DNA from: Verrucomicrobiota bacterium
GTDB taxonomy: Bacteria > Verrucomicrobiota > Verrucomicrobiia > Opitutales > Opitutaceae
NCBI GenBank assembly: GCA_016222805.1
Contig: JACRQG010000004.1
Location: 1-64,000 of the forward strand
Length of the DNA stretch: 64,000 nucleotides
Direction of reading: 5' to 3'
Part shown: one piece after another, positions 1,302 to 12,018 of the stretch
Layout: each line of letters begins with the position of its first letter
Position numbering within the stretch: the stretch's first letter is position 1
The notes under the pieces: model-generated
What the model saw: the letters and a program-made list of their open reading frames with translations, nothing else
Told to the model about the DNA's origin: nothing
Databases searched by the model: none
Program-made: the position numbers and the translations under genes

Positions 1302-2072
1302 CTACTTCATCATCGCGGTCAGGGTCGGCAGCATCGCCTCGGCCCAGAGCTGGTAGCCGGCGGCATTGGGGTGGAGCTGATCCGGCATGATCGAGAAGGG
1401 AATCTTGCCGTCCTGACCGAGGAAGACCGCGTTGATGTCGAGGAAGCGCACGCTGGCGCCGTCATCGAGCTTGGCGAGCTGGGGATTGAGGGCGGCGATG
1501 ACGGCCTGGCGTTTCGCGGCCTCGGCGGCGACGTCGGGCTTGACCGAGCCGTCCTTATCCTTGCGCGGTCCGCGGGGGAAGACGGCGAGCACGAGCACCT
1601 TGGTCTGCGGGAGCTTGGCGCGAATCAGCCCGACGATCTTCCGGTTGGCGGCGGCGATTTCATCCGCGGAGTGGGCGCCGGTGTTGTTGGTGCCGAGCAT
1701 GAGAACGACGACCTTCGGGTTGATGCCCTCGAGTTCGCCATTCTCGATGCGCCAGATCACGTGCTGGGTCTGATCGCCGCCGATGCCGAAGTTGGCCGGC
1801 TGCCACTTGCCGAAGTAGTGCTCCCAGACGTGCGGAGCCTTGGTCCAGCCCTGGGTGATCGAGTCGCCGAGGAAGAGCACGCCGATGGGTCCGGCCTTGG
1901 CGCGCGCGAGGAACGATTCGTGCATCTTGCGGAAGCGTCCGCTGGGATCGTTCTTCTCGATGGCGGCGGAGGCGTCGGGCTTGGACGCCGGCGCGGCCGG
2001 GGTCTGGGCCCCGGCGAGCGCGGTGGCGAGGAGCAGGGTGGCGGAGAGGAGGAGGCGGCGGGGGGTGTTCAT
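1302..2072 (-). CDS. SGNH/GDSL-family lipase or esterase
   Basis: This is a secreted SGNH hydrolase of 256 residues. A signal peptide (MNTPRRLLLSATLLLATALAGA) precedes the four blocks: GDSIT with nucleophile Ser71, GIGGDQT with the oxyanion Gly, GTNN with Asn129, and DQLHP with Asp231 and His234. The order and spacing fit the platelet-activating-factor acetylhydrolase-like group, which removes acetyl or short acyl groups from sugars or lipids. The ATG at 2072 is chosen because the signal peptide begins there; upstream in-frame codons add only a polar tail. The substrate cannot be deduced. Confidence 0.88.
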   Translation of the reverse strand: MNTPRRLLLSATLLLATALAGAQTPAAPASKPDASAAIEKNDPSGRFRKMHESFLARAKAGPIGVLFLGDSITQGWTKAPHVWEHYFGKWQPANFGIGGDQTQHVIWRIENGELEGINPKVVVLMLGTNNTGAHSADEIAAANRKIVGLIRAKLPQTKVLVLAVFPRGPRKDKDGSVKPDVAAEAAKRQAVIAALNPQLAKLDDGASVRFLDINAVFLGQDGKIPFSIMPDQLHPNAAGYQLWAEAMLPTLTAMMK

Positions 2073-2124
2073 GCGTGGAAGGCGGGGAGAATGACGGTGA
2101 ACGGCGGCAAACGTCACCGCAAAG

Positions 2125-3036
2125 TCAGGCGGCGGGGTGGCGTCGCTGGGCGAGCAGGTTATCGGCGGTGTAGAGGGCCAGGGCCGCCCAGATGAAGGCG
2201 AAACTGAACGACCGCGCCCGCGAGAACGGTTCGTGGTACACCCAGATCCCGAGGCCGAGTTGGACGGAAGGAGCGAGATACTGCAGCAGCCCGAGCGTGG
2301 AAAGGCGGATGCGCCGTGCGGCGATCGCGAACAGCAGCAGCGGAACCGCCGTGATGACGCCGGCGCTCAGGATCAAGGCGTGGGTGCCGGCGTCGACCCG
2401 GCCGAGGGCGCCGGTGCCCTGGAGGTGTTGCCAGCCGAGAAAGCCCACCGCGACCGGGGCCAACAGCAGCGTCTCGACGGTCAGCCCAGGCAGCGCTCCG
2501 AGCGGGGATTTCTTTCGCATCAGGCTGTAGCCGCCCCAGGAGCTGGCGAGGGCGAGGGCAATCCATGGGGGTCGGCCAACCTGGAAGATCATCACCGTCA
2601 CTCCGGTCGCGGCGAGGGCGATGGCGATCCATTGGGCGCGGCGCAGGTGCTCGTGCAGGACAAAGCGTCCGACGGCGACATTGACCAGGGGGACGAGGAA
2701 GTAACCCAGGCTGGTTTCGATGACGTGCCCGGTGTTGACGCCCCAGACGTAGACCAGCCAGTTGGCCGTCAGCAGGGCGGCGCTGAGCAGGTGCCGGGCC
2801 ACGGAGGCGCCCGTGCTGAGCGCGTCGCGTACCGCGGGCAGTCCTCCCCTGGTCCCGATGAGGATCACCAGAAATCCCAGCGACCAGACATGCCGGTGGG
2901 CGATCAGCTCGACCGGGTTGATGGCGGCGAGCCGGGTCCAATAGAGGGGTACGAGCCCCCAAAGGAGATGGCAGACAATCCCGGCGACCGCGCCGAGACG
3001 GGCCTCGCGCCCAGGGCTCGCGGTGGCGGCAGTCAC
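2125..3036 (-). CDS. rarD: RarD-type drug/metabolite permease
   Basis: This 303-residue inner-membrane protein has about ten hydrophobic helices of the EamA/DMT superfamily. The opening GIVCHLLWGLVPLYW and the central GVNTGHVIETSLGYFLVPLVNV match RarD (chloramphenicol-sensitive protein) well, including the glycine/histidine-rich loop after helix four. The start is a GTG at 3036. It is co-directional with the SGNH hydrolase (52-bp gap) and the lipoprotein upstream (24-bp gap), so the three may be cotranscribed. The transported compound is not known for the family. Confidence 0.85.
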   Translation of the reverse strand: MTAATASPGREARLGAVAGIVCHLLWGLVPLYWTRLAAINPVELIAHRHVWSLGFLVILIGTRGGLPAVRDALSTGASVARHLLSAALLTANWLVYVWGVNTGHVIETSLGYFLVPLVNVAVGRFVLHEHLRRAQWIAIALAATGVTVMIFQVGRPPWIALALASSWGGYSLMRKKSPLGALPGLTVETLLLAPVAVGFLGWQHLQGTGALGRVDAGTHALILSAGVITAVPLLLFAIAARRIRLSTLGLLQYLAPSVQLGLGIWVYHEPFSRARSFSFAFIWAALALYTADNLLAQRRHPAA

Positions 3037-3060
3037 GCGGCGGCGGGAATCGTCCTTCCG

Positions 3061-3318
3061 CTATTTCTTGGGCTTCTGGTCGAAGCCAAAGCGATCACGA
3101 AACTCCTGCTCGGCCTGGGTGCGGGCGGCCGGGGCGGCGACTCCCTGGGCGGTCAGCTCGGCGATTCGTTTGTCGAGCCAGCGCTGGCGGAAGGTCGCCT
3201 CGACTTCACTCGAAATGGCGGAGCTTTCCTTCGGGCGGTTCGATTTCCGGAAGAGGGAGCATCCGGTCGTGGCGACGAGTGCGGCAACGATGGCCACGGT
3301 GAGGAAGGACTTGGTCAT
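3061..3318 (-). CDS. Small lipoprotein of unknown function
   Basis: The 85-residue product starts with a lipoprotein signal, MTKSFLTVAIVAALVATTGC, with the lipobox ATTGC placing the acylated cysteine near residue 20. The mature part is short, charged and helical, with no known domain (a KRIAELTAQG segment and a DRFGFDQKPKK tail). It lies just upstream of the RarD gene on the same strand. The family was not recognised. Confidence 0.65.
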   Translation of the reverse strand: MTKSFLTVAIVAALVATTGCSLFRKSNRPKESSAISSEVEATFRQRWLDKRIAELTAQGVAAPAARTQAEQEFRDRFGFDQKPKK

Positions 3319-3585
3319 GGGAAGGTCGAGGATCCAACGTGGGGATGTCTCCGGCTGACCGCGAGGGAAACTTTTTGCTCCCGCCGGATTCAGGCGCCGT
3401 CCTTTCGTGGGTGGTGGTCGACCCGAATCCGCCGGGATGGCAAACGCGGTCCGGCCTCACTGCGGCCGGTTGCAACCACCCTGTGGCAGTGATCTCCGGC
3501 GAATTTGGGTTCACTTCGTGGGTACGCAGGGGGAAGGGGTGATTTTGATTTCGCGCTCAGGGCTTTTTTCGCTTTGGTGGCGGTC

Positions 3586-5100
3586 ATGAGTGACGAGCAA
3601 AAGCCGCCGCCCACCCTGCGACTCAAGCCCCGCTTGGTCCCGGCGCCGCCACCCGCCACTCCCGCTGAACCGCCGGCCTCAGAGGTCCCACCGCCCGCTC
3701 CGCCGGCCGCAGCCCCCGTGGCCCCGGCAACGACCGACGGAACGCCGGCGGCCCCCAAGATCCGGTTCAAGCCTCGTCTGATCGCCGAGCCGGCGGCCCA
3801 ACCCGCCGCCGAAGCCACCCCCGCCCCGGCACCCGCTCCCGAGCCCGAAGGTCCAGCGCCGGCTCCGGCACCGGTTCTCCCCGCCCCGCCTCCCGTAGTC
3901 TCCGCGACGCCCCCTGCGGCAGAGCCCGCCCCGGCGCCTGAGCCGGCGGCCCCGGCGCCGGGTCTCATCCGGCTGAAGCCGCGGGTACTCGTTCCCGCCA
4001 CCCCTCCCGCAGCACCGTCGGAAACTCCGCCGCCACCGGCGGAAGCGCCGCCAGCCGCCGTGCCGCCACCACCCCCGGCGGCAGCTGCCGCGTCGGGAGG
4101 GGCGCCCGCCGCAGACGCCCCAGGGAAGTTCAAACTGAAGCCCAAGGTGGCCGCGCCTCCCCCGCCGGCAGCCATTCCTGGCGCCGTGCCACCCCCTCCC
4201 TCGCCACCCCCACCTCCTCCGCCTCCCCCGGCGGCGACCGCGACGGGTGCGCCTCCTCCCCCGGTGCCACCGCCTCCGCCCATTGAGGCAGCGAAGATTC
4301 CGCCGCCGTTTCCGGTGATGGCGCCGCCCAAGTCCGGCAAGTCCGCGCCGCCGATTCCCCATGTCAGTGTGAAAGCCGAGCTGCCGGAAGCGACCGCAGA
4401 GGCGGTGCCCGGGGTTCCCGGTGCCATCGCCAAGAAGAAGCGGCTCGTGATGATTGGCGCCGGGGCCGTCGGGGTCCTCGTGTTGGGAGGGGTCGCGTTC
4501 TTCGCGTACACCACGTTTTTTTCGGCGCCTCCCCCTCCTCCGCCCCCGGCCGTTAAGAAGAAGGCGGAACCCGTGGCCGCCAAGGCGCCACCGGCGGCAG
4601 CACCCACCGCTCCCGCCCCGGCGGCGGCGGGGAAGCTCTCCGAGACCCAGAGTGCCCTCGCGCACGCTCCGGCAAAGGCGATTGGCAAGGCACAGGACGC
4701 CGTGGCCGCGCGCCAGGCAAGCGGTCAGGGCAACGTCGCCGACGCGCTCGCCACAGAGGAACTCGCCAACCGCCCGGCTGTGGGAGAACCCGTGGCGAAG
4801 GCTCCCGCGCCCAAGGCCGCGACGGCCAAACAGTCGGTGACCCGCGGGGTTTCGGCCACCACCGAACTGGAAGTCGCGGCGGTCGAGGCCAGCATGGAGT
4901 TCCGCACCTACGTGGCGAATGCGAAGGTGAGCGGCGTGTTCCAGGGCAGTCCGGCGCGGGCGATGATCAATGGCCGCCTCGTCCGCACCGGCGAAACGGT
5001 GGATGCCGGCCTCGGAATCCTGTTTGAAGGGGTGGATCCGGTGAAGCGCCAGCTGTTCTTCAAGGACCGCACTGGCGCCATCGTGGCGCGGAAGTACTAG
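3586..5100 (+). CDS. Proline/alanine-rich membrane-anchored protein with four LKPR repeats
   Basis: This 504-residue protein has three parts. Residues 1 to about 280 are low-complexity Pro/Ala with four near-identical basic motifs: LRLKPRL (about 11), IRFKPRL (59), IRLKPRV (128) and FKLKPKV (182). A single transmembrane helix follows at about 286-312 after KKKR, suggesting the repeats are cytoplasmic. A Pro/Ala linker leads to a compact domain (about 426-504) containing RAMINGRLVRTGETVD and a GVDPVKRQLFFKDRTGAIV end, reminiscent of small beta domains in type II secretion or pilus assembly proteins (GspB/PilP-like). The start MSDEQKPP is chosen over an upstream ATG because it begins the repeat region. 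Function unknown. Confidence 0.75.
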   Translation: MSDEQKPPPTLRLKPRLVPAPPPATPAEPPASEVPPPAPPAAAPVAPATTDGTPAAPKIRFKPRLIAEPAAQPAAEATPAPAPAPEPEGPAPAPAPVLPAPPPVVSATPPAAEPAPAPEPAAPAPGLIRLKPRVLVPATPPAAPSETPPPPAEAPPAAVPPPPPAAAAASGGAPAADAPGKFKLKPKVAAPPPPAAIPGAVPPPPSPPPPPPPPPAATATGAPPPPVPPPPPIEAAKIPPPFPVMAPPKSGKSAPPIPHVSVKAELPEATAEAVPGVPGAIAKKKRLVMIGAGAVGVLVLGGVAFFAYTTFFSAPPPPPPPAVKKKAEPVAAKAPPAAAPTAPAPAAAGKLSETQSALAHAPAKAIGKAQDAVAARQASGQGNVADALATEELANRPAVGEPVAKAPAPKAATAKQSVTRGVSATTELEVAAVEASMEFRTYVANAKVSGVFQGSPARAMINGRLVRTGETVDAGLGILFEGVDPVKRQLFFKDRTGAIVARKY

Positions 5101-5328
5101 GCTGCGATCCCTTCGCACCGTTCCGCGACGCCTTCACGTCGGAGGTCGGGCGCGGATTCCGCTCCGCGCGGTGTCGGCCGCCGGGTTGGCCGCGCCGTGC
5201 CGAGGGCCGGAAATGAGAGCAGGTAGGCGCGGGACGGGGTCTTCCTGCCCCCAGGCTGACCTGGAGCGATCCCGGGAGGCGACCGCGACTGTCGACCGTG
5301 GTTTCCGGCGATTGCGTCCCCTCCCGAC

Positions 5329-6669
5329 TCAGGCGGTCCAGTTGGCGCGGGCGACGCGAAGGGTGTTTTCGCCGAGAATCTTTCGGATCGTCTCGTCGCT
5401 GTGGCCACGTTGCACCAGGCCGACCGTGAACAGCGGCCAGTTGGTCCACGCGAGGGTTTGTTCCGCCTGCGGTTTGGGCCGGAAGTTGTCGACCGGCCAG
5501 AGTTGCTCCCACCGCGGACCGGCGGTCGGAATCGCCGGGCGGCCGTCGGCGCGGCGCCGCAGTTTCGCGCGCTCGGTGGCATCGTGACGCGAGACGTACG
5601 AAATGTCGGGACCGATGGCCACGTGGTCCGCGCCGAATTTCTTCACCGCATAATCGAGGTGATCGAGAAAGACCCGGATGTCGCCGGCGCCGCCGAGGAA
5701 CCGCGAGATGCAACAGATGCCGACGAGCCCGCCCGTGTCGCAGATCGCGCGGATGACCTCGTCGGGCTTGCCGCGGAAATGGGTGTAGACCCCGCAGCAG
5801 GAAGTGTGGCTCGCGACCATCGGCCGCTTCGAGGCCCGGGCGGCCTCCAGGCTAGTGCGCCACCCCGAGTGCGCCACGTCGACAATCACGCCCAGGCGGT
5901 TCAGCTCCGCCACGACGGCGTGCCCAAAATCACTGAGCCCGCCGTCGTTCGGCTCGCCGACCCCGTCGCCGATCGGATTGCGGCGGTTGTAGGTCAGGTG
6001 CATCATTCGCACGCCGAGCTGGTGGAAGAGACGGATCAGGCGCAGTTCGTCCCGGACGCTTTCCCACTGCTGGCGCAGAGGCACGCCGTTGGTCGTGAAG
6101 GCGAGACAGTGGCGCCCCTGACGCTTGGCGGTGACCACGTCGTCCGGCCGGACCACCTTGGGGCAGATGTCGGCGGCGAGGTCGGTCGCATACGTGAAGC
6201 GCGAGAGGCGCTTGATCAGCCGCAGCGGATCGCTGCCCTCCTCGCCGGTGTTCTGAAACACGCAGGTCACCCCGGCGGCCCGCATCGCGGCGAGGAACTC
6301 CTTTTTTTCGACGGAGTCGCTGGCCCAGCGCGTCATCGACATCTCCTCGCGCAGATCGGTGAGTTCCGCGTCAGAGGCGCCGGCGTCGATTTCGGCCTGG
6401 AACTTCGCGGCGTCGAGCGCGGCGCGCGGGGCGAAGCCGTAGGATTCGAAGACCAGGGACTCCGCATGGAGGCGGAGCCCGTGCTCGAGATCGCGGGCCG
6501 ACGGCTGGAGGACGGCGAGGGCGGCCTGACGGTCGCGGTTCAGGCGATCCTCGCCGGGAACGAGGCCGCTGGCGGCACCGGCGGCGCGCACGAGAACCTG
6601 GCCGGCGCCGATTAGCGGCAGCGTGGCCAGGGCCTTCACAACGGAGCGACGGGTGAGAGGGCGGGGCAC
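5329..6669 (-). CDS. M19 (membrane dipeptidase-like) protein with incomplete metal site
   Basis: The protein has a twin-arginine signal (TRRSVVKALATLPLIGAG) followed by a renal-dipeptidase-like barrel. Recognisable residues are DVAHSG (His near 267), VASHTSC (His near 288), FRGKPDEV (the substrate Arg), GPDIS (Asp near 355) and the GENTLRVA C-terminal signature. The N-terminal HxD pair is absent (the region reads LVFESYGF), and the bridging glutamate of the IEGG motif is replaced in LAFTTNG. Half of the canonical binuclear zinc site is therefore missing. The GTG at 6669 is preferred over a TTG at 6705 that would overlap the preceding gene. It may be catalytically altered. Confidence 0.82.
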   Translation of the reverse strand: MPRPLTRRSVVKALATLPLIGAGQVLVRAAGAASGLVPGEDRLNRDRQAALAVLQPSARDLEHGLRLHAESLVFESYGFAPRAALDAAKFQAEIDAGASDAELTDLREEMSMTRWASDSVEKKEFLAAMRAAGVTCVFQNTGEEGSDPLRLIKRLSRFTYATDLAADICPKVVRPDDVVTAKRQGRHCLAFTTNGVPLRQQWESVRDELRLIRLFHQLGVRMMHLTYNRRNPIGDGVGEPNDGGLSDFGHAVVAELNRLGVIVDVAHSGWRTSLEAARASKRPMVASHTSCCGVYTHFRGKPDEVIRAICDTGGLVGICCISRFLGGAGDIRVFLDHLDYAVKKFGADHVAIGPDISYVSRHDATERAKLRRRADGRPAIPTAGPRWEQLWPVDNFRPKPQAEQTLAWTNWPLFTVGLVQRGHSDETIRKILGENTLRVARANWTA

Positions 6670-6682
6670 GGCGGAGGAGGAG

Positions 6683-7105
6683 TTATTCCTTTTTCGGCGG
6701 GGCAAACTTCACGTCCTTGGTCGCCTCGGCCATTTCCTTCAGGGCCTTGTCGAGCGCCTCCTGATCCTTGCCGAATCCCTTCACCATCGGAGCGCCGGTG
6801 GAGAAGTCGATCGTCACGCCATCCTGAATCGGCACGGTTTGCGGGCCGGGCACGGGGTCGTTGCGGGGGGCCACCACCGGCAGCGGGCGGCTGGGCGGCG
6901 GGGCGAGTTTCGGGGTCGCAATCACGACTTCGGGCAGCGGGGGCGGAGGAATGGGGGGCGGCTTGAAGTTGGCGCGGAATTCGCGGTCGAGCTTGTGGCG
7001 GTTGATCCGCTCGGGAGGACCCTGCAAGGCCGGGCGGATCGTGACGAAGTAGAAGCCGGTCGCGACGGCGGCCACGAGGACGATCCAGAGCAGGCGGGAT
7101 TTCAT
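6683..7105 (-). CDS. Membrane-anchored proline-rich protein, unknown
   Basis: The 140-residue product starts with a single hydrophobic helix (SRLLWIVLVAAVATGFYFV) that acts as an uncleaved anchor or signal. A proline-rich stretch with PPPIPPPPLPE follows, then a charged helical tail ending APPKKE. Its stop lies 13 bp before the GTG of the dipeptidase homologue on the same strand, so the two probably share a transcript. No domain was recognised. Confidence 0.6.
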   Translation of the reverse strand: MKSRLLWIVLVAAVATGFYFVTIRPALQGPPERINRHKLDREFRANFKPPPIPPPPLPEVVIATPKLAPPPSRPLPVVAPRNDPVPGPQTVPIQDGVTIDFSTGAPMVKGFGKDQEALDKALKEMAEATKDVKFAPPKKE

Positions 7106-7190
7106 GCGGGGCGGTGGAGCCGGACCCCAGCATGCCCACCGACCAGCGCAGGGGCGAGCGTGAAGGTGAGCACCGGGTTCCGCCGCCGCG

Positions 7191-9593
7191 CTACTTCTTC
7201 AGGTGCGTGCCGAGCCACGTTTCCATCTCCCAGAGCAGGTGGAGCAGGCTCTCGCGGGCACGGTAGCTGTGGCTTTCGTGCGGGAGCACGACGTAGCGGG
7301 CGGTGGCCCCATGGCCCTTCAACGCCGCGTAGAACCGCTCGCTCTGGATGGGAAACGTGCCGGCGTTGTTGTCGGCGGCGCCGTGGATCAGCAGGATCGG
7401 GGTCTTCACCTGGTGAGCGAAATTGAAGGGCGACATGGCGGCGTACACCTGCGGCGCCTGCCAGAACCAGCGCTGTTCGCTCTGGAACCCGAAGGGCGTG
7501 AGGGTGCGGTTGTACGCGCCGCTCCGGGCGATGCCCGCGCGGAAGAGCTTTGAATGGGCCAGCAGGTTGGCCGTCATGAAAGCACCGTAGCTGTGCCCGC
7601 CCACCGCGATCCGGTCCTTGTCGGCCACGCCGCGGCGGACGAGTTCGTCGATCGCCGCCTGGGCGTTGGCCACGAGTTGCTCGATGTAGGTGTCGTTGGG
7701 CTTCTGCCCCTTCCGGGCGATGATGGGCATGGCGGGGTCATTGAGGACGGCGTAACCGGCGAGGAGAAACGGCAGCGGTCCGGTGGCGCTGACCCGGGTG
7801 AAGCGCTCCGGAGTGGCTTTGATCTGGGCGGCGTTCTCGGCGTCGAGAAACTCGCGCGGGTAGGCCCAGAGCAGGGTGGGCAGGGGACCGCGCTCCGGGT
7901 TCCAGCCGGGCGGCAGGTACAGGGTGCCGGACAGCGCCACGCCGTCGGCGCGCTGGTAGCGGATGACCTCCTGCCGGACGCCGGCGAAGGAGGGGAGGGG
8001 GTTGGGGAAACGGGTCAGCGCCTGAAATTCACTGGTGGCGTAATTGCGCACCCCGAAGTGGGTCGGTTCGGTGGCGGACTCCCGGGCGACGAAGGCGCGC
8101 GTGAGGGTGTCGTCGAGGAAGGAAACGAAGTCCTCGTAGTAGGGCGGGGCGGAGCGCCAGAGGCGGCGGGACCGGCGGCTGGCCAGGTCGAATTCGTCCA
8201 GAAACGGGCGATCCCCTTCGGGCGAAGCCCCGGCGCCGTGGAGGTAGATCTTTCCGCCGTCGGCGCTGCGCGCCAGAACGAGACGGCCGAGGGCGTTGCG
8301 GCGGGTCGCGGCGCGGCCCGGATCCCCGTAGCGATCCTCGCTCTGGCGCTCGAAGAGCAGCGTCCGCGCGCTGCCCGGTTTCCCTGGCTCCACCCGCCAG
8401 GTGCGCACCAGCCGGGTGTTGGACCAGGACTCGGTGACGAGGGCGAGGTCGTTCGCCCCCCACTGGATGCCCGCGATGCGGTACTCGAAGCGCTGCTGCT
8501 CGACGGGCTTGCCCGTGAACGGGGCGGCGAGGGTGAACCAGGCGTCGCGGGCGGTCCGCTGGTCCCGGGTGCGGGCGCCGCGGCCGAGGTCCTGGGACCA
8601 GCTGAGGGTGGCGGGGGCGTCGGCCCGCCAGGTGAGGTTGCGGGGTCCCGGGCGGACGGCGGTGGTGGCGGTGCCCTCGTTGAGCGGCAGCTCCGCGACC
8701 CGGTGGACCCGCCGGCCGGTGCGATCGAAGAGGTCGATCGTCACCGGGAAACGCCCGGAAGGCACGAGGTAGGAGTACGGGCGGCGGAGGGTCTCGACCA
8801 GGATGTACTTGCCGTCTGGAGACGGGTTGGCCGTGGTGAGGAGCCCGCGGATCGGCAGGGACTGGAGTGCGCCGTCGAGGGTGACCAGGGCGAGTTCGCA
8901 GTCGCCATAGAAGTCGAAGAGCGCCTCGTCGTGGGGACTGGCGAGCAGGCCGTCGTAGGTGCGGGCGCCGGCGCGTTGCCCGCGGTTTTCCTGCACGATG
9001 GGGCCGGAGGGCACGGCGGGAGCGAGCGGGGCGGGTCCCCGGCCGGCGGGAACCCGGCGGATGAGGAGGGTGGCATCGTCGAGCCAGATGATCGGCTCGC
9101 CGAACACGGCGTTGAGGATTGGGTCGGTGAGCCGCCGGGCGCGGGCGGTGCCGACGTCGACCAGCCAGAGCGCGATGCCACGATCCAGCACGAGGGTGAT
9201 CGCCAGATGCCGGCCGTCCCGGCTCCACTCGTAGTCGCCGATGCGGACTCCGGCCGGCAGTCCGGTGACCCGTTGGGCCGGGCCTCCGGCGAGCGGCTGC
9301 AGGGCGAGACCGGTGTAAACGAATTCGCGACTGCGGCCGTTGGTCGCGGGGTTGATCCGCAGGCCGGCGAGCTTGAGTTCGGGCTGCGCGAGTTCGGCGA
9401 TGCCGGGCGCCTCGGGTCGGTCGAGCAGGAGCAGGCGCTGACGGTCGGGACTCAGCACCGCGGTGGGCGGCGTCGGGGCGTCGACGACCGCCGCGAGGGC
9501 GGCGGATGGCATGCGGTAGGCGGGCGGCTCTTCGGCGGCCGCGGGAACCAGCTGGACCAACATGGCCAGCCAGAGCGGAAAGCGACGCAACAT
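7191..9593 (-). CDS. S9-family serine peptidase (prolyl oligopeptidase/glutamyl endopeptidase type)
   Basis: This 800-residue secreted peptidase has a signal peptide (LRRFPLWLAMLVQLVPAAA), a long N-terminal beta-propeller region with WD-like blades (for example DYEWSRDGRHLAI), and a C-terminal alpha/beta-hydrolase domain. The triad is visible as GGHSYGAF (Ser about 668), HGAADNN (Asp about 741) and PHESHSY (His about 775). The spacing and the LLWAYPRE segment at the domain entry resemble glutamyl endopeptidases of the S9 clan. The ATG at 9593 is chosen for its signal peptide; an upstream ATG would overlap the divergent MATE gene. The 154-bp divergent interval should hold both promoters. Confidence 0.88.
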   Translation of the reverse strand: MLRRFPLWLAMLVQLVPAAAEEPPAYRMPSAALAAVVDAPTPPTAVLSPDRQRLLLLDRPEAPGIAELAQPELKLAGLRINPATNGRSREFVYTGLALQPLAGGPAQRVTGLPAGVRIGDYEWSRDGRHLAITLVLDRGIALWLVDVGTARARRLTDPILNAVFGEPIIWLDDATLLIRRVPAGRGPAPLAPAVPSGPIVQENRGQRAGARTYDGLLASPHDEALFDFYGDCELALVTLDGALQSLPIRGLLTTANPSPDGKYILVETLRRPYSYLVPSGRFPVTIDLFDRTGRRVHRVAELPLNEGTATTAVRPGPRNLTWRADAPATLSWSQDLGRGARTRDQRTARDAWFTLAAPFTGKPVEQQRFEYRIAGIQWGANDLALVTESWSNTRLVRTWRVEPGKPGSARTLLFERQSEDRYGDPGRAATRRNALGRLVLARSADGGKIYLHGAGASPEGDRPFLDEFDLASRRSRRLWRSAPPYYEDFVSFLDDTLTRAFVARESATEPTHFGVRNYATSEFQALTRFPNPLPSFAGVRQEVIRYQRADGVALSGTLYLPPGWNPERGPLPTLLWAYPREFLDAENAAQIKATPERFTRVSATGPLPFLLAGYAVLNDPAMPIIARKGQKPNDTYIEQLVANAQAAIDELVRRGVADKDRIAVGGHSYGAFMTANLLAHSKLFRAGIARSGAYNRTLTPFGFQSEQRWFWQAPQVYAAMSPFNFAHQVKTPILLIHGAADNNAGTFPIQSERFYAALKGHGATARYVVLPHESHSYRARESLLHLLWEMETWLGTHLKK

Positions 9594-9747
9594 GGGGGCG
9601 AAGTTGATCCGCCGTTCCACGGCTGGCAACCGCTGCGAGGGGGCGAAGCCGCCGGCACACTCGCCGTCGTTGCAAGTGCGCGGCTGATCCCGCGGCCCCG
9701 GGACGGGGCTGGACTGGCGCCGGGGTGGCGCTTCTGCTTCGGCTGCC

Positions 9748-11076
9748 ATGGCCCGCCCTCCCTACCTCGCCGAACTGCGTCCAACGCTGACGCTGGCGGC
9801 GCCGATCGTGATCGGCCAGGTCAGCCAGATGCTGATGGGAGTGACCGACAGCGCGATGATCGGTCACGCCGGCACGGTGCCGCTGGCGGCGTCTGCCTTC
9901 GGGAGCAACATCTTCAACATCTTTTATGTGTTCGGGATTGGCTTGATGATTCCGGTCTCGATCTTCGTCGCGCGTGCCCGGGGTGCCCAACGGCCGGAAG
10001 AAGCGGCGGAATACCTGCGGCACGGCCTGACGGCGGCCCTCGTGGCGGGGGCGGCAGAGATGCTCGTGATGGCCGCGCTGGCCACCCAACTCCACCGGTT
10101 CGGCCAGCCCCCGGAAGTGCTGGCGATTGTGACGCCGTTTTACCTCCTGTTTGCGGCCTCGATTGCGCCGGTCCTGGTGTACCTCGTCCTGCGGCAGTAT
10201 GCGGAGGCGATGGGCCACCCGTGGGTGCCGATGTTCATCATGCTGGGCGGCGTCGGCCTGAACGCGCTGCTCAACTGGGTCTTCATCTACGGCCACCTGG
10301 GAGTGCCGGCGCTCGGGTTGACCGGTGCGGGAATCTCGACGCTGACTTCACGGACGCTGGGCGCCCTGGTGATCTTCCTTTGGTTGCGGCGCTACCCGGC
10401 GGTCCGGGAGTCGTGGCCGCGGCACTGGTGGGGCGGTTATTCGGCGGCACGCTTCCGGGAGATGCTCCACGTGGGGGCGCCGGCCGGCGGCATGCTGCTG
10501 TTCGAGGTCACGGCGTTCGCCTTCTCCGGCATCATGATCGGCTGGCTTGGAGCCGTGCCGCTGGCGGCGCACCAGATCGCGATGACCTGCGCGTCGTTCG
10601 CGTTCATGTTCCCGCTCGGCCTCTCCACGGCGGCCGGCATGCGCGTCAGCCACGCGGTGGGCGCCGGGGAGCGCGGGCGGCTGCGGCCGATCGCCTTCGG
10701 GGCGATTGGACTCGGACTGGCGGTGATGACGTTTTTCGCCGTGGCGTTTGCCGTCGGTGGACGGATGATTGCCTCGTGGTTCGTGCCGGATCCGGCGGTG
10801 ATCGCGCTGGCGGCCCAGCTGCTGATCGTGGCGGCGGTGTTTCAACTCGCCGACGGCGTGCAGGTGATCGCAGCGGCGGTGCTCCGCGGAGTGACCGACG
10901 TGCGGCTGCCCGCGGTCATCACGCTCATCGCCTACTGGGTGATCGCGCTGCCGCTCGGCTACGGCCTGGGCATTTCCGGACCACTGGGCGCCGCCGGCGT
11001 CTGGGTGGGAATCGCCGGCGGGCTGGCCTTCGCGGCGATCTTCCTGACGGTGCGTTTTGCGCGGCTCACGCGGTGA
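9748..11076 (+). CDS. MATE-family multidrug/cation antiporter
   Basis: The 442-residue integral membrane protein has about twelve helices in two similar halves, as in MATE exporters. The N-terminal half carries APIVIGQVSQMLMGVTDSAMIGH, the family's signature region in NorM-like proteins, and the second half repeats the pattern near GAPAGGMLLFE and QIAMTCASFAF. It probably exports cationic or planar compounds using a sodium or proton gradient. It is divergent from the S9 peptidase and ends 12 bp before the convergent beta-barrel gene. Confidence 0.88.
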   Translation: MARPPYLAELRPTLTLAAPIVIGQVSQMLMGVTDSAMIGHAGTVPLAASAFGSNIFNIFYVFGIGLMIPVSIFVARARGAQRPEEAAEYLRHGLTAALVAGAAEMLVMAALATQLHRFGQPPEVLAIVTPFYLLFAASIAPVLVYLVLRQYAEAMGHPWVPMFIMLGGVGLNALLNWVFIYGHLGVPALGLTGAGISTLTSRTLGALVIFLWLRRYPAVRESWPRHWWGGYSAARFREMLHVGAPAGGMLLFEVTAFAFSGIMIGWLGAVPLAAHQIAMTCASFAFMFPLGLSTAAGMRVSHAVGAGERGRLRPIAFGAIGLGLAVMTFFAVAFAVGGRMIASWFVPDPAVIALAAQLLIVAAVFQLADGVQVIAAAVLRGVTDVRLPAVITLIAYWVIALPLGYGLGISGPLGAAGVWVGIAGGLAFAAIFLTVRFARLTR

Positions 11077-11088
11077 GCGGACCGGCTG

Positions 11089-12018
11089 TCAGAATTTCCA
11101 ATCGAGTTCGAGGCTGGCGAAGCCGGCGGTACCGTCGGAGCGCAGGCGGTAGTCACGGCTTTCGTATTCGGCTTCGAGCACCGGCACGATGCCCGCGCCG
11201 AGGCGCACGCGCCACGCCGGAGCCATCTGCCACGTCAGCGCCGGGCCGACCCGCACCGCCTGATACTCGAGGCGCGAGCGGTTGAGCGCCGGCTTGTTGC
11301 GGCCGGCGGGCAGCGGGTCATCGGCCACGGCATAGGACCCGAAGTCCATTTCGGCGACGAATTCGGCGGAGACTTCCGGCGAGATCGTCCACGACACCCC
11401 GGTGCGGGGGAAACCCAGGAAGGCGCGCCAGCCCGGGGCCGGCGACCAGTCGAACGTCGCGATCGGCAGCAGGCGGGTGCTGCCGCGGGCCAGGGAATCA
11501 TAGCGCAGGCCAAATCCCGCGCTCACGTCGGCGCTGAACTTGCGGGTGGCGAGGGCCATCACCCCCACACCGAAACCGCGTTCCGTGAAACCGCCGCCGG
11601 CGTTGCCGTATCCCGGGCTGATGCTGCCGAAGAGGCTCCAGTCCGGAGAGAGGCTGCCACGGGCGTTGAGCGAAAGCGACAGGCTGCGCAGGGTGTCGGG
11701 CACGGGAGTGCCGGGATCCCGATCGAGGTCGTGCTGGCGGTACCGGACGCCGATCGACGGAAACCACCGCTGGTCCACGGCCGGCAGCGGCACCGACAGT
11801 CGCGCGCCGTATTGCGCGACCGCCATACCGCCGGCGGGGGCCCCGCGGGCCTCGACCCCGACGTTGCCCGTGAAGGCGCCCTCGAGAAGCAGCGACGGTT
11901 GGTTCATGGGCGTGCGACCCGGTCCTTGGGCGCCAGCGGCCCAGGTAGGAGCGAGCAAGGCGAAGAAGCACGAAAGCACCCAGATGGAACGATGAAGGCG
12001 GAGGGAGGTGGGAGGCAT
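11089..12018 (-). CDS. Outer-membrane beta-barrel protein (DUF6268-like)
   Basis: A signal peptide (WVLSCFFALLAPTWAAGA) is followed by alternating hydrophobic and polar strands rich in Tyr, Trp, Arg and Gly, such as FPSIGVRYRQHDLD, LFGSISPGYGNAGG and GFASLELDWKF. The final residue is Phe, as in proteins recognised by the BAM machinery. This points to a 309-residue outer-membrane barrel; the pattern is close to DUF6268 barrels common in Verrucomicrobiota. No transport partner is adjacent. The function is unknown. Confidence 0.65.
   Translation of the reverse strand: MPPTSLRLHRSIWVLSCFFALLAPTWAAGAQGPGRTPMNQPSLLLEGAFTGNVGVEARGAPAGGMAVAQYGARLSVPLPAVDQRWFPSIGVRYRQHDLDRDPGTPVPDTLRSLSLSLNARGSLSPDWSLFGSISPGYGNAGGGFTERGFGVGVMALATRKFSADVSAGFGLRYDSLARGSTRLLPIATFDWSPAPGWRAFLGFPRTGVSWTISPEVSAEFVAEMDFGSYAVADDPLPAGRNKPALNRSRLEYQAVRVGPALTWQMAPAWRVRLGAGIVPVLEAEYESRDYRLRSDGTAGFASLELDWKF

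Follow-up and report, generated by a model that had tools for sequence, protein, structure and literature searches.

The window, a stretch of 64,000 nucleotides, carries a gene whose product is homologous to M19 peptidases but, judged by its active-site residues, is no canonical dipeptidase of that family. Of the canonical binuclear site, the HxD pair on strand 1, the bridging Glu on strand 3 and H152 are all absent, and the equivalents of H198, H219, R230 and D288 are present. Our preferred reading, held with about even confidence, is a Tat-exported, probably one-metal enzyme of changed chemistry.

The gene lies on the minus strand at 5329–6669 (446 aa, from a GTG at 6669 to a stop at 5329), within an open frame that spans 6705 (TTG) to 5329; the plus-strand translation of 5329–6669 is broken by a stop. 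The in-frame GTG at 6669 was taken as the start because it falls only 13 nt past the stop of an upstream 140-aa ORF, and because the interval given in the first-pass annotation of this DNA, which named no strand, ends at the same coordinate. Residues are numbered as in P0001, with the TTG at 6705 as the first codon. Pfam PF01244 (Peptidase_M19) matched residues 123–453 with an E value of 1.3e-59 (202 bits against a cut-off of 26), and NCBIfam gave no match up to E 0.1. One other M19 match was found in the same genome; it has kept DAHLD and SLEGA and looks canonical.

Ahead of the domain, a twin-arginine motif precedes a hydrophobic stretch, and TatC is encoded in the same genome; both are expected of a Tat substrate. 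Of 81 loci (the window and 80 relatives), 78 have a loose form of the motif ahead of the domain, and one of the three that lack it (L042) begins at a contig edge. These data uphold the Tat-type signal proposed in the first-pass annotation, and on the strength of the motif the protein is probably exported by Tat, which would make its location periplasmic. Tat export is common for proteins that are given their cofactor before export, and a one-metal enzyme would fit this route.

Table 1. Coordinates of the export motif, the active-site positions and the two ORFs upstream of the M19 gene. Residue names in brackets or after "replaces" follow renal dipeptidase.
Feature	Position	Strand	Basis or residue states
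S9 peptidase ORF, prolyl-oligopeptidase-type, upstream of M19 gene	7191..9749	minus	PF00326, E 2.5e-24
140-aa ORF, one N-terminal hydrophobic segment and a proline-rich part	6683..7105	minus	ends 13 nt before M19 start
Twin-arginine motif T-R-R-S-V-V-K ahead of hydrophobic stretch, residues 18–24	6634..6654	minus	sequence
Y89, replaces metal ligand H20	6439..6441	minus	Y 84/84 close; F 13, Y 7 of 20 distant; H 26/26 references
F91, replaces metal ligand D22	6433..6435	minus	F 104/104; D 26/26 references
E156, invariant carboxylate past barrel strand 2 (model strand 148–152)	6238..6240	minus	E 104/104
N206, replaces bridging Glu E125	6088..6090	minus	N 104/104; E 26/26 references; plasmid relatives Q 19, E 4 of 23
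Y239, replaces substrate-binding H152	5989..5991	minus	Y 127/127 non-canonical; H 26/26 references
H279 (H198), metal ligand kept	5869..5871	minus	H 153/153
H300 (H219), metal ligand kept	5806..5808	minus	H 153/153
R311 (R230), substrate-carboxylate Arg kept	5773..5775	minus	R 153/153
D367 (D288), catalytic Asp kept	5605..5607	minus	D 153/153

Three sets of proteins were compared. The close members (n=84) are the window protein, L004–L006 of related genomes and L033–L112, the best 80 of 431 relatives in the genome collection. The references (n=26) are the paralogue from the same genome and 25 M19 loci found in as many genomes of the window's taxonomic family, and the distant members (n=20) came from a profile search of the phylum and are 35–54% identical over the aligned part. 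The 80 close loci were found with the patterns MMH[LV]TYN and [LV][AT]WTNWPL, which favour H236, Y239, W420, N422 and W423 by construction; because of this the distant loci were added, which, like L004–L006, are free of the pattern-search bias. The proteins of the distant loci mostly start close to the domain and look cytosolic. The names and roles of the renal dipeptidase residues (H20, D22, E125, H152, H198, H219, R230 and D288) are those we take to be established, and they were matched to our proteins via sequence alignments and motifs.

In the first alignment, the columns of H20, D22 and H152 held Tyr, Phe and Tyr in 84/84 close members versus His, Asp and His in 26/26 references, and H198, H219, R230 and D288 were identical in all 110 proteins. 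All 20 distant loci have Phe at D22, Asn at E125 and Tyr at H152, and keep both His, the Arg and the Asp; E156, H236, E251, K313 and D315 are likewise found in 20/20. Across the 104 family members, down to 35% identity, H20 is thus Tyr or Phe, D22 is Phe, E125 is Asn and H152 is Tyr, with no exception. Since the same states are fixed in 104 relatives, the active-site changes are not due to chance. In the first alignment (84 and 26 proteins) the lost Glu stood opposite T205, a position that varies (Glu in 25/26 references), and in two later alignments it stood opposite N206 (Glu in 26/26); neither residue is a carboxylate. We prefer the N206 placement, which lets the region that starts at the G-R/K ahead of strand 3 align gap-free.

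The first-pass annotation had stated that the HxD pair and the IEGG glutamate are absent and that the later His pair, the Arg and the Asp remain. All of this was borne out: Y89 and F91 stand where 26/26 references have H and D, N206 (or T205) lies opposite the reference Glu, and H279, H300, R311 and D367 are in place. Our analysis adds the replacement of H152 by Tyr (Y239), the family-wide fixation of the changes and the presence of the same altered site in a known structure, 2I5G. Thirty-nine positions are invariant across the 104 family members, among them E156, N206, H236, Y239 and K313, and only nine are invariant in 139 M19 proteins, canonical or not (G261, D276, H279, H300, R311, D315, G358, D367 and N447).

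Structure prediction with AlphaFold2 from 57 sequences gave an eight-strand barrel with a mean pLDDT of 89.5 and a pTM of 0.86; an initial model from four sequences was poor (pLDDT 58.6) and was set aside. The best PDB match of the model in Foldseek was 2I5G (E 2.6e-22). In VIA-align, M19 structures scored Z 31.6–39.5 (17 rows) and the next fold family, represented by a phosphotriesterase, 16.1; the individual values were 39.5 for GliJ, 38.9 for 2I5G, 38.3 for human renal dipeptidase, 38.1 for Sco3058, 37.5 for PvdM and 36.5 for DPEP3. The predicted fold is that of the M19 barrel, and alignment and model together confirm the M19 homology claimed in the first-pass annotation.

The altered site extends beyond the family. 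A tblastn search with the M19 protein matched 364 plasmid records, in which coverage at a single place never reaches 80%, and 23 of the 40 plasmid relatives listed were compared. All 23 have Tyr at H152 and keep both His, the Arg and the Asp. Gln occupies the Glu position in 19/23, none of them with His at H20; the remaining 4/23 carry Glu there, each together with His at H20 and with Tyr already at H152. Over 153 proteins, Glu is kept wherever His is present at H20 (30/30) and is an amide wherever H20 is lost (123/123; Gln in 19, Asn in 104). A tree built without the active-site columns split 33 non-canonical rows from 11 canonical ones (support 94/90), and an earlier tree of 48 rows that included these columns gave the same split (98/97). 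On the tree without active-site columns each of the two traits (H20 and Glu) changes twice, with one well-supported independent pair, and significance was not reached; with so few evolutionary events, a link between the Glu-to-amide change and the loss of H20 is suggestive. All canonical rows were drawn from a single taxonomic family, so that the position of the clade in M19 at large is provisional. The window protein falls with the 2I5G-like clade in having Tyr for H152, no HxD and an amide for the bridging Glu. The neighbours of other non-canonical M19 genes (L113–L121) include ABC transporters of the peptide or other types, D-aminoacylase, M14 or M28 peptidases, agmatinase and FAD oxidoreductases, and they suggest that substrates differ across the clade.

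In canonical M19 enzymes an Arg (R230) holds the substrate carboxylate and H152 holds the dipeptide carbonyl. From the changes above we infer the metal number, the reaction, the substrate and, with the signal motif, the periplasmic location. The clade would have lost the alpha (first) zinc together with the His for the dipeptide carbonyl, and retained the beta (second) site. A single metal would be held by H279 and H300, aided by D367 or water and by the side-chain oxygen of N206, which would stand where the bridging Glu was, and Tyr/Phe 89 and Phe 91 would occupy the space of the lost first site. The substrate carboxylate would be bound by R311, perhaps together with K313; D367 would act as general base, with Y239 in place of H152. 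In place of ordinary dipeptide hydrolysis, the enzyme would probably cleave, by hydrolysis or otherwise, a small amino-acid-like compound that bears a carboxylate. A site with a single metal and no bridge would be expected to show aromatic residues on strand 1 and an amide where the Glu was, and a one-metal enzyme is favoured for this reason.

The first-pass annotation had listed a mononuclear enzyme, a changed reaction or a non-catalytic binding protein. The list was a fair one, but it left the choice open. The conservation of the late His, Arg and Asp, the Glu-to-amide change that accompanies H20 loss and the low dN/dS speak for a site that works, probably with one metal, and against a degenerate one. 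The dN/dS was 0.03–0.13 in the 25 closest pairs and 0.14–0.19 for the window and its four nearest relatives (dS 0.8–1.1), and the M19 family gene is under purifying selection. An alternative is a binding protein or scaffold without catalysis, as with human DPEP3, which would still bind a carboxylate ligand via R311 with no cleavage. Four active-site residues are altered, among them H152, whose replacement by Tyr is presumably the decisive change in DPEP3. DPEP3 (6VGO), reportedly without dipeptidase activity, also matches our model (Z 36.5). However, the late His pair, Arg and Asp are kept in 127/127 non-canonical proteins, for which a mere binder has no obvious need, and more polar residues are fixed in the family; we consider a binding protein unlikely.

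One point against a one-metal enzyme comes from the site itself: two His and an amide make a weak metal site, and the protein could be metal-free. Some members of the amidohydrolase superfamily do work without metal, and here the two His, the Asp and the family residues E156 and K313 would be reused for acid-base chemistry. Three of the five metal ligands are lost, the remaining amide is a poor ligand, and K313 is found in 104/104 family members and 17/23 plasmid relatives versus 0/26 canonical references. The His pair of the second site is nonetheless strictly kept, in 153/153 proteins, and we judge metal-independent catalysis to be quite improbable.

E156 is a candidate substitute ligand or acid/base, and a third possibility is that the enzyme still binds two metals, with E156 (after strand 2), H236 (strand 4) and N206 supplying the lost ligands. 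E156 and H236 are indeed invariant (104/104); the model puts E156 directly after strand 2 and H236 where strand 4 ends. The loop of E156, however, aligns unsteadily to canonical proteins and differs between alignments: the commonest states of its column were R (19) and L (6) in the first alignment, and Glu was found in 11/26 canonical references in the 139-protein alignment, so that E156 may not be a new feature. With aromatic residues at H20 and D22 that would occupy the first site, and Glu in the E156 column in 0/9 of the first plasmid relatives, all of which have Tyr for H152, a two-metal site is the most doubtful of the alternatives.

The one-metal reading gains no partner from the gene neighbourhood. 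No cluster of neighbouring ORFs occurred in more than 12 loci among the 80 related loci and the window, and among the 94 direct neighbours of the target gene in 47 loci (80 minus 3 in which the target frame was not recovered and 30 with short flanks) the commonest Pfam families had six members. In the window, between 1305 and 12018, genes for a GDSL lipase, EamA, S9 peptidase, MatE and DUF6268 were found, along with two without a Pfam match. On the minus strand (6669–9749) the genes for the S9 peptidase, the proline-rich single-pass protein of 140 aa and the M19 protein follow one another closely, with gaps of 85 and then 13 nt, and may form an operon; the 140-aa ORF has no Pfam match at E 0.001, and the arrangement was not seen as a conserved cluster in related loci. 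A 531-aa ORF on the plus strand (3505–5100) is very rich in Pro and Ala, has a central hydrophobic segment and has no Pfam match.

The divergent copies have other neighbours. Ten of 19 such copies, from seven genomes that were chosen after their neighbours had been seen, lie within 2 kb of a right-handed beta-helix match (Pfam Beta_helix, lyase-like), with 0.7 expected (L123–L126, L128, L129, L132–L134 and L136), and for 27 copies in the other 26 genomes there was no beta-helix pair among the matches listed. Genes for GntR/LacI-type regulators and DUF4838 also occur near distant loci. These neighbours hint at a polysaccharide link of the divergent copies; the gene caller recovered 17 of the 20 distant loci, and 29 of their 63 listed neighbours were scanned.

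Of the 288 genomes of the phylum, 33 have a match at E ≤ 1e-100, the copy number in a single genome reaching six, and 69 of 150 genomes of the window's taxonomic family have one at E ≤ 1e-3. By score, five of the matches in that family are window-type (the window and L004–L007), and the 25 loci ranked next that were examined are canonical. L007 (positions 1450–1836, genome G046) is a copy of the window type that has decayed and is in part deleted. By record title, the 80 loci come from Verrucomicrobiota, Planctomycetota, Kiritimatiellae, Latescibacterota and Bryobacterales (Acidobacteriota), and a few are MAGs titled Proteobacteria, Bacteroidales or uncultured bacterium. Window-type genes are carried by MAGs titled Proteobacteria, Akkermansia muciniphila or Bacteroidales (L035, L036, L048, L090 and L096), the labels or binning of which may be wrong.

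More tentatively, a second enzyme class may have arisen from the M19 fold and become widespread, present in bacteria and in at least one archaeon; it would use a one-metal site for non-dipeptidase chemistry. The window gene would be an exported planctomycete/verrucomicrobial branch of it, and substrates of the class might be, for instance, N-methylated amino acids or sugar-acid compounds. The plasmid relatives lack residues on which the dipeptidase reaction depends. If the one-metal reading is true, the "dipeptidase" annotations of such proteins are wrong; "dipeptidase" or "membrane dipeptidase" is the annotation in the 15 of the 23 plasmid relatives that carry one. The amidohydrolase superfamily would then also gain a traceable route from two metals to one, as in four plasmid proteins Tyr already stands for H152 while the His at H20 and the Glu are retained.

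Among known M19 proteins, canonical human renal dipeptidase (1ITQ) and Sco3058 (3ID7) have the same fold as the window protein and, by the numbering we assume, H198, H219, R230 and D288 in common with it, whereas the equivalents of their H20, D22, E125 and H152 are missing from the window protein. GliJ is represented in the PDB by titles that include D38 mutants, D38 being, we presume, the Asp of HxD. Human DPEP3 likewise has the M19 fold in common with the window protein; according to Hayashi et al., this M19 member has no dipeptidase activity. The likeness to PvdM (3B40), another M19 homologue, is one of fold (Z as above). PvdM is grouped in PMC6206403 with the periplasmic pyoverdine enzymes, and of that operon only the first gene is reported to be essential.

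The closest known relative is 2I5G, an "amidohydrolase" of Pseudomonas aeruginosa released in 2006, which we take to be PA5396. It was the best PDB match by sequence (E 1.2e-32; by profile E 2.1e-45), and like the window protein it has no HxD, has Tyr for H152 and keeps the His, His, Arg and Asp. No description of the altered M19 site (2I5G, PA5396 or mononuclear M19) was found in the literature searched, mostly without subscription journals. L115 (323 aa), a close relative of 2I5G (E 5.1e-158), has no leader, and the 2I5G chain has 325 residues; the window protein, in contrast, carries a Tat-type leader. L115 lies in a cluster with dgcA/dgcB-like (dimethylglycine demethylase) genes, in the order serine hydroxymethyltransferase, dipeptidase, DUF5943, NADH:flavin oxidoreductase, Fe-S protein and ETF. 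L148 has the first three genes of this order, and the M19 gene of L118 comes after sarcosine oxidase subunits. The window M19 gene is not in such a cluster, no dimethylglycine or sarcosine gene linkage being found within 1305–12018, and the linkage is seen in some 2I5G-like members only and does not strictly define them. In Vibrio natriegens, according to PMC12093977, dgcAB-fixAB is preceded by pepD, which is predicted to encode a dipeptidase, and by a hypothetical gene, with the same place in P. aeruginosa. PMC10963909 assigns to the RoxR regulon both dgcA (PP_0310) and the dipeptidase PP_0308 of P. putida KT2440, which is probably of this clade. The dgcAB-linked relatives offer a direct route to a substrate in common laboratory bacteria. 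We conclude that the altered site has been in the PDB since 2006, in 2I5G, as a form for which we found no published description, and that the window family, with Asn where 2I5G has Gln at the bridging-Glu site, is the Asn variant of it.
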